DNA of 56,535 nt. It comes from Acidobacteriota bacterium (lineage in GTDB: Bacteria > Acidobacteriota > Terriglobia > Bryobacterales > Bryobacteraceae). Positions 18,414-23,855 of this stretch are shown piece by piece; the stretch's first letter is position 1; the number at the start of each line of letters is the position of its first letter. The position numbers were made by a program, and so were the translations under genes. The stretch lies in contig QHXW01000011.1 in the NCBI GenBank assembly GCA_003223115.1, forward strand, positions 1 to 56,535. The letters are read 5' to 3'. The notes beneath the pieces were generated by a model that was not told the origin of the DNA, did not search any database, and was given only the letters and a program-made list of their open reading frames with translations.

Positions 18414-19331
18414 ATGCCTGAGTACTCGATCGGTCTGGACCTCGGCGGCACGAATCTGCGGGCGGCCGCGGTCAGCCGGGAAGGTGACATCCTGGAGAAA
18501 ATCTCCGTCAGCGCCAGCCCTCAGAAAGGGCGGGAACACCTTCTGGGAGAGATGGTGGCGGTGATTGGTGACCTGCGATCGCGATGGGGTACGGGGCAGT
18601 TAGGCGGCATCGGCCTCGGTGTTCCGGGCTTTATTCTCCTGAAAGATGGCGTGATCCGCAACTCAAATAACCTCGCATGTCTCGAGGATTTCCCCTTTCG
18701 TGACGAAATGGAGCGGCGGCTTCAAACGCCGATCATTCTAGAAAACGACGGCAACGCAGCCGCTCTGGGTGAAAAGTGGAGAGGCGCCGGACGCGACGTT
18801 GACGACCTTGTCATGCTCACACTGGGCACGGGCATCGGAGGAGGCATCATCTCCCGGGGACGCGTGCTGCATGGATTTCTGGGGATGGCCGGCGAACTGG
18901 GGCATCTCACCGTGGTACCGAACGGCACTCCATGCGGCTGTGGTAACCGTGGGTGCCTGGAGAAACACGCGTCGGCCACTGCCATCACTTCGATGGCTCG
19001 CTTGCTGGGCCTGGGCGATGATCTGACATCCGCCGGCGTTTACTCGCTCGCCAGCAATGGAAACGAGCACGCGCAAACCGTTTTCCGCTGCATGGGAGAA
19101 GCTCTTGGAATAGCGTTGGCCATGATGGTGAATGTATTCAACTTTCCGCTTTACTTGCTGAGCGGGGGCGTCCTGCCGGCCTGGGATCGGTTCGCCCCGG
19201 CCATGTTGGAAGAAATGCAACGCCGTTCCTTCACTTTTCGGACGACGGAAACGAAAATCGAAAAGGCCATCCTGGGCAACGAAGCAGGGCTCTACGGAGC
19301 CGCTTATCTTCCCTGGATAGCGGCGAAGTGA
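18414..19331 (+). CDS. ROK-family sugar kinase (glucokinase-like)
   Basis: The 305-residue protein has the phosphate-binding motif GLDLGGTNLR (7-16), catalytic Asp in ENDGNAAALGE (D112), the ROK zinc site CGCGNRGCLE with C174, C176 and C181, and the sugar-binding ExGH at 161-164. There is no N-terminal HTH, so it is a kinase rather than a NagC/Mlc-type repressor. Glucose is the most common substrate of this branch, though others phosphorylate mannose, fructose or N-acetyl sugars. The xylulokinase gene starts 17 bases later, so both are likely co-transcribed as a sugar-phosphorylating pair. Confidence 0.9.
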   Translation: MPEYSIGLDLGGTNLRAAAVSREGDILEKISVSASPQKGREHLLGEMVAVIGDLRSRWGTGQLGGIGLGVPGFILLKDGVIRNSNNLACLEDFPFRDEMERRLQTPIILENDGNAAALGEKWRGAGRDVDDLVMLTLGTGIGGGIISRGRVLHGFLGMAGELGHLTVVPNGTPCGCGNRGCLEKHASATAITSMARLLGLGDDLTSAGVYSLASNGNEHAQTVFRCMGEALGIALAMMVNVFNFPLYLLSGGVLPAWDRFAPAMLEEMQRRSFTFRTTETKIEKAILGNEAGLYGAAYLPWIAAK

Positions 19332-19348
19332 TCACGGAGATCTGAGAA

Positions 19349-20839
19349 ATGTGGATGGGAATTGATGTCGGCACCGGGGGTACGCGCGCGCTACTGGTGG
19401 ATGAGCGGGGAAAAATCTGCGCGGGCTTCACGTCGCCGCACGACGAAATGCGCATGGAACGCCCGCTCTGGGCGGAACAGCATCCCGAGAATTGGTGGGA
19501 AGCGACGGTGAAAGCCATTCGCGGCGTACTGGCAGAATCGCGCATTTCCAGCTCCGACGTGTGCGGCATCGGGTTGTCAGGCCAGATGCACGGCCTTGTC
19601 ATTTTGGACAAGAGCAACCAGGTCATCCGTCCGGCTCTGATCTGGTGCGATCAGCGCAGCCAGGAACAAGTGGATGCCGTCAACCGGCGCATCGGCCGCG
19701 CCAGTATTCTGAACTACACAGCCAATCCGGTGCTCACGGGTTTCACGCTACCAAAATTGATGTGGGTGCGGGACCACGAGCCGAAACATTTCGAGCGCGT
19801 GCACAAAATGCTCCTGCCTAAGGATTATCTTCGCTTCCGGCTGACTGGCGAATTCGCCACTGAAGTTTCGGACGCATCCGGGACCGCTTTGTTCGATGTC
19901 ATACGGCGTGAATGGTCCGCGCCGATGCTGGAAGCTCTAGGCATCGACCTGGCGATTCTGCCCCGCTGTTACGAATCAAGCGATGTGACGGGAATCGTGA
20001 CGCCGGCAGGGGCGGGTTCAACCGGACTCGCGCCGGGCACACCGGTGATCGGTGGCGGCGGCGACCAGGCGGCCAGCGCAGTAGGTAATGGCATCGTCGA
20101 GCCAGGGATCGTTTCCTGCACGCTGGGTACATCCGGTGTTGTGTTCGCTCACATGGAGCAGGTGGCCTACGATCCCTCCGGCCGGGTGCACACGTTCTGC
20201 CACGCGGTTCGCGATAAGTGGCACGTCATGGGCGTTACACAGGGCGCGGGCCTGAGCCTGCAATGGTTCAGGAATCAGCTAGCGCCGGGCGAGGACTACG
20301 ACGCGCTGATGACTGTAGCCGCGAAAGCGCCCGCCGGTTCACAAGGTTTGTTCTGGCTCCCCTATCTCATGGGCGAACGCACTCCCCACCTGGATGCCAG
20401 GGCGCGCGGCGGCTGGATCGGCTTAACGGCAAGACACCAACGGGCAGATTTGGTTCGTGCCCTCATTGAAGGCGTCAGCTACAGTCAAAAAGATTGCCTG
20501 GACATCATCGAGCAACTTGGTGTCCCAGTACATTCGGTACGCGTCTCCGGTGGCGGCGGCCGCAGCCCGTTCTGGCGGCAGTTACTGGCCGATGTGCTCG
20601 CAAAGCCGGTGGTAACTCTGGCGACTCAGGAAGGTTCCGCATACGGTGCGGCCCTACTGGCTCTGGTCGGCACAGGAACGTACAGCTCGGTTCCCGAGGT
20701 GTGCCGCGCCGCGATTCGCGAGACGGAAAAAGTAACGCCGCGCCCCGAGAATTCCGCCGTGTATCAGGACGGCCATTCCATTTTTCGCACTTTATATCCC
20801 GCGTTGAAGCCCGCTTACCACATGATTGCCCAACTGTAG
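19349..20839 (+). CDS. xylB: xylulokinase (FGGY family)
   Basis: The 496-residue protein is full length. It opens with GIDVGTGGTRALLVD (ATP-site loop), has the xylulose-specific SGQMHG (75-80 region), the DASGT motif, the catalytic Asp in GGGGDQA, and the C-terminal adenine site VSGGGGRSPFW. It converts D-xylulose to D-xylulose 5-phosphate, feeding the same pentose phosphate pathway as the transaldolase at the start of the window. It follows the ROK kinase closely. No xylose isomerase or sugar transporter is in view. Ends in TAG. Confidence 0.93.
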   Translation: MWMGIDVGTGGTRALLVDERGKICAGFTSPHDEMRMERPLWAEQHPENWWEATVKAIRGVLAESRISSSDVCGIGLSGQMHGLVILDKSNQVIRPALIWCDQRSQEQVDAVNRRIGRASILNYTANPVLTGFTLPKLMWVRDHEPKHFERVHKMLLPKDYLRFRLTGEFATEVSDASGTALFDVIRREWSAPMLEALGIDLAILPRCYESSDVTGIVTPAGAGSTGLAPGTPVIGGGGDQAASAVGNGIVEPGIVSCTLGTSGVVFAHMEQVAYDPSGRVHTFCHAVRDKWHVMGVTQGAGLSLQWFRNQLAPGEDYDALMTVAAKAPAGSQGLFWLPYLMGERTPHLDARARGGWIGLTARHQRADLVRALIEGVSYSQKDCLDIIEQLGVPVHSVRVSGGGGRSPFWRQLLADVLAKPVVTLATQEGSAYGAALLALVGTGTYSSVPEVCRAAIRETEKVTPRPENSAVYQDGHSIFRTLYPALKPAYHMIAQL

Positions 20840-21028: not shown

Positions 21029-21056
21029 GAGTTGTCGCTATCCTTAGGAGAAAATT

Positions 21057-23855
21057 ATGGGCCACACACACACAATCATTGTTTTTTCACACCTTCGCTG
21101 GGACTTTGTGTATCAAAGGCCGCAGCATTTGCTGTCCCGCCTCGCGACGAAGTGCCGTGTAATCTTTATAGAGGAACCCATTTTTGACGAGAGCGGAACG
21201 CATTACTGGGAGAAGAAAAATCCTGAATCGAACGTGCTCGTCTGCCGTCCGCACACTGACATTCCGAGTCCAGGATATTCAGACAGCCAAATCCCTCTTC
21301 TAAAAACTTTGGTCCGCGAGCTCATCCACCAGGAGAACATCACAGATTACGTCTTGTGGTTTTACACACCGATGGCGCTTCCGCTGGCCGAGAACCTGCG
21401 GCCCCAAGCGGTGATCTATGACTGCATGGATGAGCTCTCGGCATTCTTGAACGCGCCGCCGGAGTTACTGGAGCGGGAAGCGGCATTATTGAAGCTCGCG
21501 GACCTGGTTTTCACGGGCGGCCCAAGCCTCTACCGCGCCAAGAAAGACCGCCATCCCGACGTCCATTGTTTCCCGAGCAGCGTGGATGCGCCACACTTCG
21601 GAAAAGCCCGTGGCTCGAGCTCCGAAGCGCCTGACCAAGCGGGTCTGCCTCACCCGCGGCTTGGCTTTTTTGGCGTTATCGACGAGAGGCTCGATCTGAA
21701 TCTGCTGGACCAGCTTGCCGCCTCACATCCTGAATGGCAGATCCTGATGGTGGGTCCGGTGGTGAAGATCGATCCGGCGACGTTACCGCGACACAAAAAT
21801 CTGCACTATTTTGGCCAGCGCGGGTACGCCGAGTTGCCTGGATTTCTGGCCGGCTGGGACGTGTGCCTGCTGCCGTTCGCCCGTAATCAATCGACTAAGT
21901 TCATCAGTCCCACTAAGACGCTGGAGTACATGGCGGCTGAAAAGCCCATCGTCAGCACGCCCATTACTGATGTCGCAGAGCCCTACGCCGATATCGTTTA
22001 TCTCGGCTCGACACCCGAGGCCTTCATCGCGGGCTGCGAAAAGGCGCTCGCTTCATCTCGTGCCGATCGCACTTCGCGGCTTGCGAAAATGCGCGACGTA
22101 CTGGCGCGAACGTCATGGGACCAAACCGCGAACGACATGGAGGAGTTGGTCTTGAAATCCATCAGCAAGAGCGCGAATCTTCCCGACGGCGTGTTCGCGC
22201 CGACCCACACGACTACGGCCAGCGGATCGGGCGAAGAATCGGTCCGCTGGGCGCCCTCGACGATCGTCGTTGGAGCCGGACCTACGGGCCTGAGTGCCGC
22301 TTACCACTTGGGCGAAGACGCTCTGCTGCTGGAGCAAAACGACGGCGTGGGCGGATGGTGCCGATCTGTTGAAGCCAGTGGGTTCACATTCGACTATGCC
22401 GGACACATCATGTTTTCGAATGAGCCGTACGTACACCAGCTCTATAAAATGCTGCTGGGCGACAACGTTCACTGGCAGGATCGCGAAGCCTGGATTTACA
22501 GCAAGGACGTTTATACGCGCTACCCGTTCCAGGGTTCGCTCTACGGCCTTCCGGCGAACGTGATCAAAGAATGCATAACCGGAGCGATTGAAGCCCGCTT
22601 CGGCAGTTTGAGGGCAAAGAAGGGTGATTCAGCCAATGCCGCATCGAACACCGTGCATGTAAACGGAACGCGGGGTGGCACCAACGGGCATGCCAATGGC
22701 AGCGACAAAGCCAATAGACATTTCAATGGAATTGGCCTGAAAGCCAATGGGTCCAACGGCCATTGCAAAGTCGAACCGGTGAACGATTGCTGTGCGGACG
22801 GGATTCTCGAAAGCACCGCTGCACTGGCACAACCCGCACCGGCGGAACGCATATCGGGCGAGCCGTGCAACTTCGAAGAGTTCATCTATAAGATCTGGGG
22901 CGCGGGAATCGCCAAACACTTTGCGATTCCGTACAACAAGAAACTGTGGGCGGTACCGCTCAGCGAGATGGAGACTTCATGGCTGGGTGGCCGCGTCCCC
23001 ATGCCTGATCTGGAAGAGCTGATCGAAGGCGCACTTTCGCCCTTATCCAAGCCCATGGGGCCGAACGCCCGTTTCGGATATCCGTTGCGAGGCGGGTTCC
23101 AGGCGCTTATGGAGGGGTTCCTGCCGCACTTGAAGGGGCAGCTCCGCTACAACAGCCGCGTGGAAAAAGTGTCGCCCAGCCGGCACGAGCTCACTTTGGA
23201 CGACGGGACAGAGATGAAATACGAGCATCTCATCAGTACCATGCCGCTGCCGGTTCTCATCCGTTCAATGAGCGATGAAGCTCCGCGCGAAATCCGCGAG
23301 GCTGCCCGGTCGCTGCGGCATGTGTCGGTACGCTGCGTCCACATCGGCGTGGGCCGCGAGAACATTACCGACAAGCACTGGATTTACTACCCCGAAGACA
23401 CGGTGTTCCATCGCATCTTTGTGCAAGGCAACGCCAGCCCCCACTGCAATCCGCCGGGCGGCTTCGGGTTCACATGCGAGATCACCTACTCGCCACACAA
23501 GCCTCTTCCCTGTGATGGCGATGCGCTCATCGAACGCTGCATCGACGATGCCCGCCGTGTGGGATTCATTGGGCAGGACGATCCGATTTGGGAAGCAATG
23601 CAGTGCGACTTGCCTTATGCCTACGTGGTTTATGACCACGGCCGGACAAAGAGCGTGGCGCGGATCCGTGAGTGGCTGGCCGAGCAGGACATCATTCTCG
23701 CCGGCCGCTACGGCGAGTGGGAATATTACAATTCAGACCACGCTTTCATCGCGGGCCAGAAGGCTGCCGACACAGTAATAGAACTCAAACAGGAACGGAT
23801 GAACGTAGGCGATCTGCTATCCAATTCCTGGGAGCTGAGTAGCAGCCAGGTCTGA
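21057..23855 (+). CDS. glycosyltransferase fused to a UDP-galactopyranose-mutase-like flavoprotein
   Basis: The 932-residue protein has two parts. Residues 1 to about 370 are a GT-B glycosyltransferase: DFVYQRPQHLLSRLA at the start, a linker strand CLLPFARN, and the donor-site motif SPTKTLEYMAAEKPIV. Residues about 400 to 915 start with a dinucleotide-binding motif VVGAGPTGLSAAYHL and continue with YPFQGSLYGLP, GIAKHFAIPYNKKLW and a C-terminal DHAFIAGQKAA, the pattern of UDP-galactopyranose mutase and related flavin oxidoreductases. An Asn/Gly/His-rich insert occupies about 521-595. The mutase makes UDP-galactofuranose; the transferase could use it. TTAGGAGAAA precedes the ATG. No frameshift is seen. 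Confidence 0.85.
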   Translation: MGHTHTIIVFSHLRWDFVYQRPQHLLSRLATKCRVIFIEEPIFDESGTHYWEKKNPESNVLVCRPHTDIPSPGYSDSQIPLLKTLVRELIHQENITDYVLWFYTPMALPLAENLRPQAVIYDCMDELSAFLNAPPELLEREAALLKLADLVFTGGPSLYRAKKDRHPDVHCFPSSVDAPHFGKARGSSSEAPDQAGLPHPRLGFFGVIDERLDLNLLDQLAASHPEWQILMVGPVVKIDPATLPRHKNLHYFGQRGYAELPGFLAGWDVCLLPFARNQSTKFISPTKTLEYMAAEKPIVSTPITDVAEPYADIVYLGSTPEAFIAGCEKALASSRADRTSRLAKMRDVLARTSWDQTANDMEELVLKSISKSANLPDGVFAPTHTTTASGSGEESVRWAPSTIVVGAGPTGLSAAYHLGEDALLLEQNDGVGGWCRSVEASGFTFDYAGHIMFSNEPYVHQLYKMLLGDNVHWQDREAWIYSKDVYTRYPFQGSLYGLPANVIKECITGAIEARFGSLRAKKGDSANAASNTVHVNGTRGGTNGHANGSDKANRHFNGIGLKANGSNGHCKVEPVNDCCADGILESTAALAQPAPAERISGEPCNFEEFIYKIWGAGIAKHFAIPYNKKLWAVPLSEMETSWLGGRVPMPDLEELIEGALSPLSKPMGPNARFGYPLRGGFQALMEGFLPHLKGQLRYNSRVEKVSPSRHELTLDDGTEMKYEHLISTMPLPVLIRSMSDEAPREIREAARSLRHVSVRCVHIGVGRENITDKHWIYYPEDTVFHRIFVQGNASPHCNPPGGFGFTCEITYSPHKPLPCDGDALIERCIDDARRVGFIGQDDPIWEAMQCDLPYAYVVYDHGRTKSVARIREWLAEQDIILAGRYGEWEYYNSDHAFIAGQKAADTVIELKQERMNVGDLLSNSWELSSSQV

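Follow-up and report, generated by a model that had tools for sequence, protein, structure and literature searches.

A single open reading frame (ORF) in the 56,535-nucleotide window analysed here (contig QHXW01000011.1 of an Acidobacteriota bacterium, family Bryobacteraceae) joins a GT4-like GT-B glycosyltransferase (GT) to a flavoenzyme related to UDP-galactopyranose mutase (UGM) of the eukaryotic type (eUGM). We consider it reasonably probable that the UGM-type half would make UDP-galactofuranose (UDP-Galf), and that the tethered GT4-like transferase would add galactofuranose (Galf) to an acceptor, draining the scarce product. The ORF (21057 to 23855, plus strand) encodes 932 amino acids, starts with ATG and contains no internal stop. 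Pfam analysis of the protein returned PF13692 (group-1 glycosyltransferase) at residues 218 to 331, NAD_binding_8 at 404 to 464 and Amino_oxidase at 671 to 908. Both halves occupy a single frame in 38 loci; among the 32 loci recovered by scanning genome contigs, the fusion was in one frame in 31 and the remaining copy (L052) was truncated by a contig end. Because the one-frame arrangement of GT and mutase recurs in 38 loci, we conclude that it is no accident of assembly. An earlier note on this DNA had proposed that a mutase-like flavoenzyme and a GT-B transferase share one chain, and this proposal was borne out.

The mutase half is related, by sequence comparison, to eukaryotic-type UGM and not to bacterial Glf (PF03275). 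Its best relatives of solved structure in phmmer searches were the UGMs of A. fumigatus (AfUGM) and T. cruzi (E about 1e-50), with 34% identity to AfUGM across 408 aligned residues. Foldseek placed UGM structures, headed by 3ukh (E 1.9e-28), ahead of protoporphyrinogen oxidases (PPO) as matches to the mutase model. In VIA-align, the model reached Z 31.7 with 4DSH (root-mean-square deviation, rmsd, 5.9 over 376) and Z 31.0 with 4DSG (rmsd 2.7 over 319). PPO structures follow a few Z units below UGM, at about 28, so the fold alone leaves the function undecided. Membership of the canonical Glf family was rejected, as the protein has no PF03275 match and scored 20.6 bits with TIGR00031 against a cut-off of 303.75; the Pfam search likewise returned no PF03275 match in the available contigs of its genome.

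To read the substrate residues, the UDP-Galp contacts of AfUGM given in Table 3 of PMC3624792 were mapped onto the fusion by way of the phmmer alignment. All 13 contacts in that list are identical in the window's mutase: Y104 corresponds to Y489, F106 to F491, Q107 to Q492, F158 to F622, N163 to N627, W167 to W631, R182 to R646, N207 to N670, Y317 to Y777, R327 to R786, Y419 to Y856, Y453 to Y890 and N457 to N892. The same 13 positions are invariant across the 30 rows of our alignment A1 and, together with the flavin-stacking histidine, are retained in 37 of the 38 fusions. In the window's protein this histidine is H450; AfUGM Gly62 is kept as G449, but Gly61 is replaced by A448, giving an AGH rather than a GGH loop. 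A mutase half devoid of flavin-stacking and UDP-binding residues, which the earlier note had named as telling against its proposal, is thus not what we find.

As a control, the same positions were read in other UGM-fold proteins. Among 14 further paralogues of the relatives, 11 retain 8 to 10 of the 13 contacts, one retains 11 and two retain 13, with losses concentrated at F106, Q107, N163 and N207. Two canonical Glf proteins retain 6 and 7 (a loose alignment at 18 to 20% identity), and an adjacent eUGM (L100) and an orphan mutase (L021) retain all 13. Since most paralogues retain fewer, possession of the full set is not a property of the UGM fold as such. A group of UGM-fold proteins comprising L108 (from the window's own genome, contig C554), L110 to L113, L115, L118, L119 and L121 has 9 of the 13 contacts, the F106, Q107, N163 and N207 positions being changed; these proteins may act on another UDP-sugar. 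Separately, the mutase half of the fusions contains an otherwise variable, low-complexity insert with one conserved spot, a DCC[AG]DG-type motif. The motif was found in 35 of the 38 fusions (absent from L044, L053 and L049), and none of the stand-alone relatives L109, L117, L100 and L114 has it.

The N-terminal half is recognisable as a GT4-like GT-B glycosyltransferase. It matches PF13692 with 32.4 bits (cut-off 27), and its model aligned in VIA-align with sucrose-phosphate synthase 6KIH (Z 32.0, rmsd 3.0 over 355) and with MshA 3C4Q (Z 31.8, rmsd 2.8 over 351). The second glutamate of EX7E, which we take to be the motif expected of GT4-like GT-B transferases, is E290 and is kept in at least 90% of the rows of A1. 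The nearest NCBIfam model, TuaH (NF047676), scored below threshold (83.9 bits against a cut-off of 550). Judging from the genes that accompany it, UDP-Galf is quite probably the donor of this half. An AlphaFold2 model of the whole chain (28 sequences) had a mean predicted local distance difference test (pLDDT) score of 73.9 and a predicted template modelling (pTM) score of 0.46. In the GT half, pLDDT exceeded 85 in the majority of 10-residue blocks, and values below 50 fell in the linker (376 to 397), the insert (520 to 600) and several mutase segments carrying active-site residues. The linker region measures 17 to 67 residues in the 29 fusions of A1 and is in frame throughout.

Significantly, the same GT family (45 to 57% identical to the window's GT) is paired with a canonical Glf in 23 loci. 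The two are fused in four of these (L058 from Azospirillum, L090, L093 and L120) and adjacent in 19, where 26 to 229 bp separate the tblastn matches. Glf identity was confirmed with PF03275 by Pfam in L022, L058 and L128 and taken from tblastn similarity to the L022 Glf in the remainder; the L081 Glf passes TIGR00031 in NCBIfam (414 against 303.75). A survey of 396 evenly drawn genomes of the phylum detected the GT, at E up to 1e-70, in 22 including the window's own, and in the other 21 loci a UGM was fused or adjacent in every case (20 Glf, one eUGM). In D. radiodurans, the GT gene (50% over 341 residues) overlaps a glf gene whose product aligns to the solved UGM DrUGM (3HDQ) with zero differences. 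Six further plasmid regions were inspected and a UGM was present in four.

On a tree of 63 GT rows, partner type requires 2 changes; a four-state label requires 6, against a shuffled mean of 22.0. This careful tree was made without an outgroup and replaced a quick tree whose four outgroup transferases had very long branches. In Comamonas antarctica (L057:12741-16340), a chain of a GH1-like domain and the GT is nested within the eUGM-fusion clade (support 99/95 and 98/94), and a separate canonical glf occupies the usual place of the mutase after that chain, an apparent replacement of the mutase in place.

Galactose and glycosidase genes recur around both forms, and as the flanks span about 8 kb for most fusion loci and about 5 kb for most Glf loci, the counts are lower bounds. 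GH2 lies near the GT in 14 of 38 eUGM-fusion loci and 9 of 23 Glf loci, galK in 7 and 8 and galT in 5 and 5, respectively; the galK and galT of Methylomagnum pass TIGR00131 and TIGR00209. A galE-like cluster has members in 11 loci, and the three tested were all above the galE cut-off. Apart from this cluster, whose 11 members were listed individually, neighbour clusters include shadow ORFs and were used as leads only. The GH1-like domain, with profile matches to beta-glycosidases (best E 7e-14), is present at 16 of 38 eUGM-fusion loci (in L034 as a 59-residue piece only) and 14 of 23 Glf loci (in L093 cut by the stretch edge). These figures follow the removal of weak matches in L032 (26%), L045 (28%) and L088 (26%) from initial counts of 18 and 15. 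In 10 eUGM and two Glf loci, the domain forms the N-terminal part of a fusion with the GT. Among 13 aligned members, an NE pair is present in 12 (not L025) and a later glutamate in all 13; these are presumably the catalytic residues. In addition, all four proteins scanned from L129, L130, L131 and L132 carry a GH1-like domain fused to an RmlD-like sugar-nucleotide reductase domain, beside the same GT family.

The GH2 of this cassette had 7XYR, 7SF2 and the beta-D-galactofuranosidase 9J6N as its best matches in the PDB. PMC12243196 assigns 7XYR and 9J6M to GH2 group III, active on furanosides, and describes 7XYR itself as uncharacterised. The cassette GH2 is probably a furanosidase, as judged from these relatives. 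The window's own genome has GH2 (80% identity, with the NE motif retained) and GH1-like (62%) genes side by side on contig C118, and galK (45%) and galT (39%) elsewhere. Because the GT exchanges partners with Glf and keeps galactose and furanosidase-type neighbours, a galactofuranose product is supported.

Several observations weigh against this interpretation. In the mutase half, the AfUGM FAD contacts D38, S39, L46, V64, Q458 and S461 are changed to E, Q, W, I, S and A. Three of the seven readable NADPH-site residues, as listed in PMC7662398, differ and four are identical, N57 being excluded from the count as the alignment register did not fit. Furthermore, the contact-bearing segments 470-498, 623-631, 635-649, 662-676 and 886-892 have a modelled pLDDT below 50. 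One fusion, L049 of Noviherbaspirillum humi, retains 11 of the 13 tabulated contacts (Q107 to Glu, N207 to Ala) and has no DCC insert; these changes and the absent insert suggest possible divergence or decay of this copy. In the transferase half, the first glutamate of EX7E is replaced by F or Y in A1, and the donor assignment rests on gene association. GH2, galK and galT are all absent from the available stretch of 24 of the 38 fusion loci, the window among them. GH2 group III also holds arabinofuranosidases, according to PMC12243196, and 7XYR carries the PDB title beta-glucuronidase. Genome G016 has the mutase with a closest GT of only 29%, and the regions inspected in Azospirillum thermophilum and in Runella, where the record start cuts the locus, contain GT and GH1-like genes but lack a UGM.

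The mechanism that we favour can be set out as follows. The C-terminal half, which is highly likely to have mutase activity, would with its FAD reduced convert UDP-Galp to UDP-Galf through the covalent flavin mechanism of UGMs, whereby reduced FAD forms a sugar adduct (established for the family; PMC4192007). The N-terminal GT would take UDP-Galf and put Galf on an acceptor. As the equilibrium between UDP-Galp and UDP-Galf lies 93:7 on the side of UDP-Galp (PMC3308961), a tethered transferase would help, with flexible-linker tethering, rather than guidance through a rigid tunnel, drawing off the scarce UDP-Galf. The long and variable linkers fit tethering only, and a rigid tunnel gets no support. 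The chain would be part of a dispersed cassette of galE, galK, galT, the putative furanosidase GH2 and the GH1-like domain, in which GH2 would turn over the Galf product.

Alternatively, the flavin half might be a mutase for another UDP-sugar (e.g. UDP-GalNAc or UDP-arabinopyranose), with the GT transferring that furanose. The diversification of UGM-fold paralogues at the tabulated substrate positions, the presence of ROK and FGGY kinases, rather than galactose genes, beside the window's fusion, and the arabinofuranosidases included in group III by PMC12243196 would all suit such an enzyme. We nevertheless regard it as unlikely, since it sits poorly with the retention of all 13 UDP-Galp contacts of Table 3, with the exchange of partners with Glf, DrUGM included, and with the galK, galT and galE genes beside other copies. 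Less probable still is that the two enzymes are both active but work towards different products or exist as separate proteins, with the fusion serving co-expression and an internal start yielding free mutase. An in-frame TTG at residue 366 with GGAGGAG 6 nt before it, the orphan mutase in G016 and the long, variable linker are in keeping with this arrangement, but unless the two enzymes share a product, there is no easy explanation for a GT paired with two different UGM types, both as a neighbour and in fusions. It is very improbable that the flavin half has no mutase role and acts as a redox enzyme with the amine-oxidase or PPO fold: the Pfam label Amino_oxidase, public records reading FAD-dependent oxidoreductase, NCBIfam matches under cut-off and the Z of about 28 for PPO structures agree with it, yet UGM ranks above PPO in Foldseek and, with a margin of a few Z units, also in VIA-align, and the UGM substrate contacts listed in PMC3624792 are intact.

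The full fusion was found in 5 of 61 genomes of relatives, the window's own counted, and in the phylum survey (396 genomes, E up to 1e-70) the full-length form occurred in the window's own genome only. The majority of the 38 copies belong to Proteobacteria. Those from genome contigs come mostly from Oxalobacteraceae, Nitrosospira and Variovorax, with one Acidobacteria and one Planctomycetota metagenome-assembled genome (MAG). The nearest named copy is that of an Acidobacteria MAG (L023; 71% in the GT half), in keeping with the assignment of the window to Acidobacteriota. Among 72,556 plasmid records, 17 held a region spanning 80% or more of the query, among them records from Pantoea, Methylomagnum, Chimaeribacter and Ewingella. 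With 5 of 61 genomes positive and most copies in Proteobacteria, the fusion does not mark this lineage, in which the earlier note had suggested that it could mark a galactofuranose-like surface glycan; the galactofuranose-like product proposed in the same note is supported by the partner exchange with Glf and by the galactose and furanosidase-type neighbours. The note had also counted separate, unlinked genes in close relatives against its proposal. Here the picture is mixed: G016 has an orphan mutase, and in G035 (L022) GT and Glf are separate yet adjacent. On an Ewingella americana plasmid (L059:10811-14807), GH1-like, GT and mutase pieces lie in different frames, and this is probably a decaying copy.

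The features of the fusion are collected in Table 1. In the window, its neighbours are ROK and FGGY (xylulokinase-like) sugar kinase genes directly upstream (18414-20839) and a ceramidase-like gene; GH2, GH1-like, galK and galT genes were not found in the window. An operon with the upstream ROK/FGGY kinases or with MurJ is not claimed, no recurrence having been seen in two lists limited to 30 and 45 clusters (names assigned by eye). A promoter scan found 3 sites against a shuffled mean of 2.7, and 14 terminator-like sites were found against 6.2.

Table 1. Positions of the fusion gene and its parts in the window.
Feature	Position	Strand	Basis
GT-eUGM fusion, 932 aa	21057..23855	+	ORF, Pfam, phmmer, comparison across loci
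GT-B (GT4-like) glycosyltransferase half, aa 1-371	21057..22169	+	Pfam Glyco_trans_1_4; model matches MshA and sucrose-phosphate synthase
Variable linker, aa 372-400	22170..22256	+	Length variation among fusions; low pLDDT at aa 376-397
eUGM half, aa 401-911	22257..23789	+	phmmer, structure match, UDP-Galp contacts
Low-complexity insert in mutase, aa 517-600	22605..22856	+	DCC motif conservation; pLDDT <50 at 520-600
DCCADG in insert, aa 577-582	22785-22802	+	
Ribosome-binding-site-like AGGAG, 6 nt 5' of ATG	21046..21050	+	Read from sequence

Returning to the galactofuranose pathway, we considered what kind of product the cassette might serve. To look for polysaccharide genes, 100 ORFs of at least 200 residues, lying no more than 6 kb from the GT, were scanned in the flanks of the 23 Glf loci; some are probably shadow ORFs. 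The 25 commonest of the 118 Pfam families included no polymerase, no flippase and no outer-membrane exporter; the commonest were sugar-nucleotide epimerase and RmlD-like families, with 11 members each. No signal peptide was seen, by eye only, at the GH2 and GH1-like N-termini. Because polymer-assembly families are missing from these 25 and no signal peptides were seen, we tentatively raise a speculative possibility. A widespread, unnamed Galf cassette, built round one GT4-like transferase with an exchangeable mutase partner (two deeply different UGM types) and also joined to a GH1-like glycosidase, might, perhaps under stress, produce and turn over a small Galf glycoside or glycolipid and not a surface polysaccharide. 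The Glf-type locus L081 (3-2809), one of the 20 surveyed Glf loci with flanks scanned, has Poly_export and Polysacc_synt_2 genes nearby. This setting possibly fits a polysaccharide role at L081, and its export genes speak against a small product as a general rule. Exporter-type ABC transporter genes come after the fusion at two loci (L044, L053) and after the GT-Glf fusion at L058. An ABC exporter was rejected as a cassette member, being found in 3 of 38 and 1 of 23 loci, with one of the three a 31% match on the opposite strand. Pfam identified a short-chain dehydrogenase (L019), YetF/DUF421 (L039) and hemerythrin (L047) near fusions, and L059 has manganese catalase and ferritin-like genes nearby by annotation. 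A stress role of the fusion is only hinted at.

Both kinds of enzyme are already known; we found no description of the fusion or the cassette in the open-access literature searched. With eukaryotic-type UGM (A. fumigatus and T. cruzi; 3UTE/3UKH and 4DSG), the window's mutase shares the fold, the FAD-binding glycine motif, the flavin-loop histidine and the 13 UDP-Galp contacts tabulated for AfUGM. It differs in being bacterial and GT-fused and in having the DCC[AG]DG insert and the AGH loop. Canonical Glf (PF03275/TIGR00031; DrUGM 3HDQ) occupies the corresponding position with this GT family, as neighbour or as fusion partner, whereas the window's mutase has no PF03275 match. The GT shares its fold with TuaH and other GT4-like GT-B enzymes (MshA, BshA), but is below the TuaH cut-off and mutase-fused. 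GH2 group III furanosidases (GH2_18/GH2_19, including the Streptomyces Galf-ase 9J6M), as classified in PMC12243196, number among the closest proteins of solved structure to the cassette GH2, which is known here by sequence. Public plasmid records annotate the GT-Glf form as 'glf' and the eUGM form as an FAD-dependent oxidoreductase; our comparison suggests that records with the latter label are UDP-sugar mutase-transferases.

Bacterial galactofuranose is mainly known from the polysaccharides of pathogens and the mycobacterial wall. A GT family that lies beside the solved Deinococcus UGM and is UGM-fused in soil and plant-associated bacteria provides a defined pair for testing UDP-Galf transfer. 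The pair bears on the benefit that tethering would bring under an unfavourable equilibrium, and on why bacteria swapped UGM types. Moreover, the partner exchange points to a little-studied galactose pathway.

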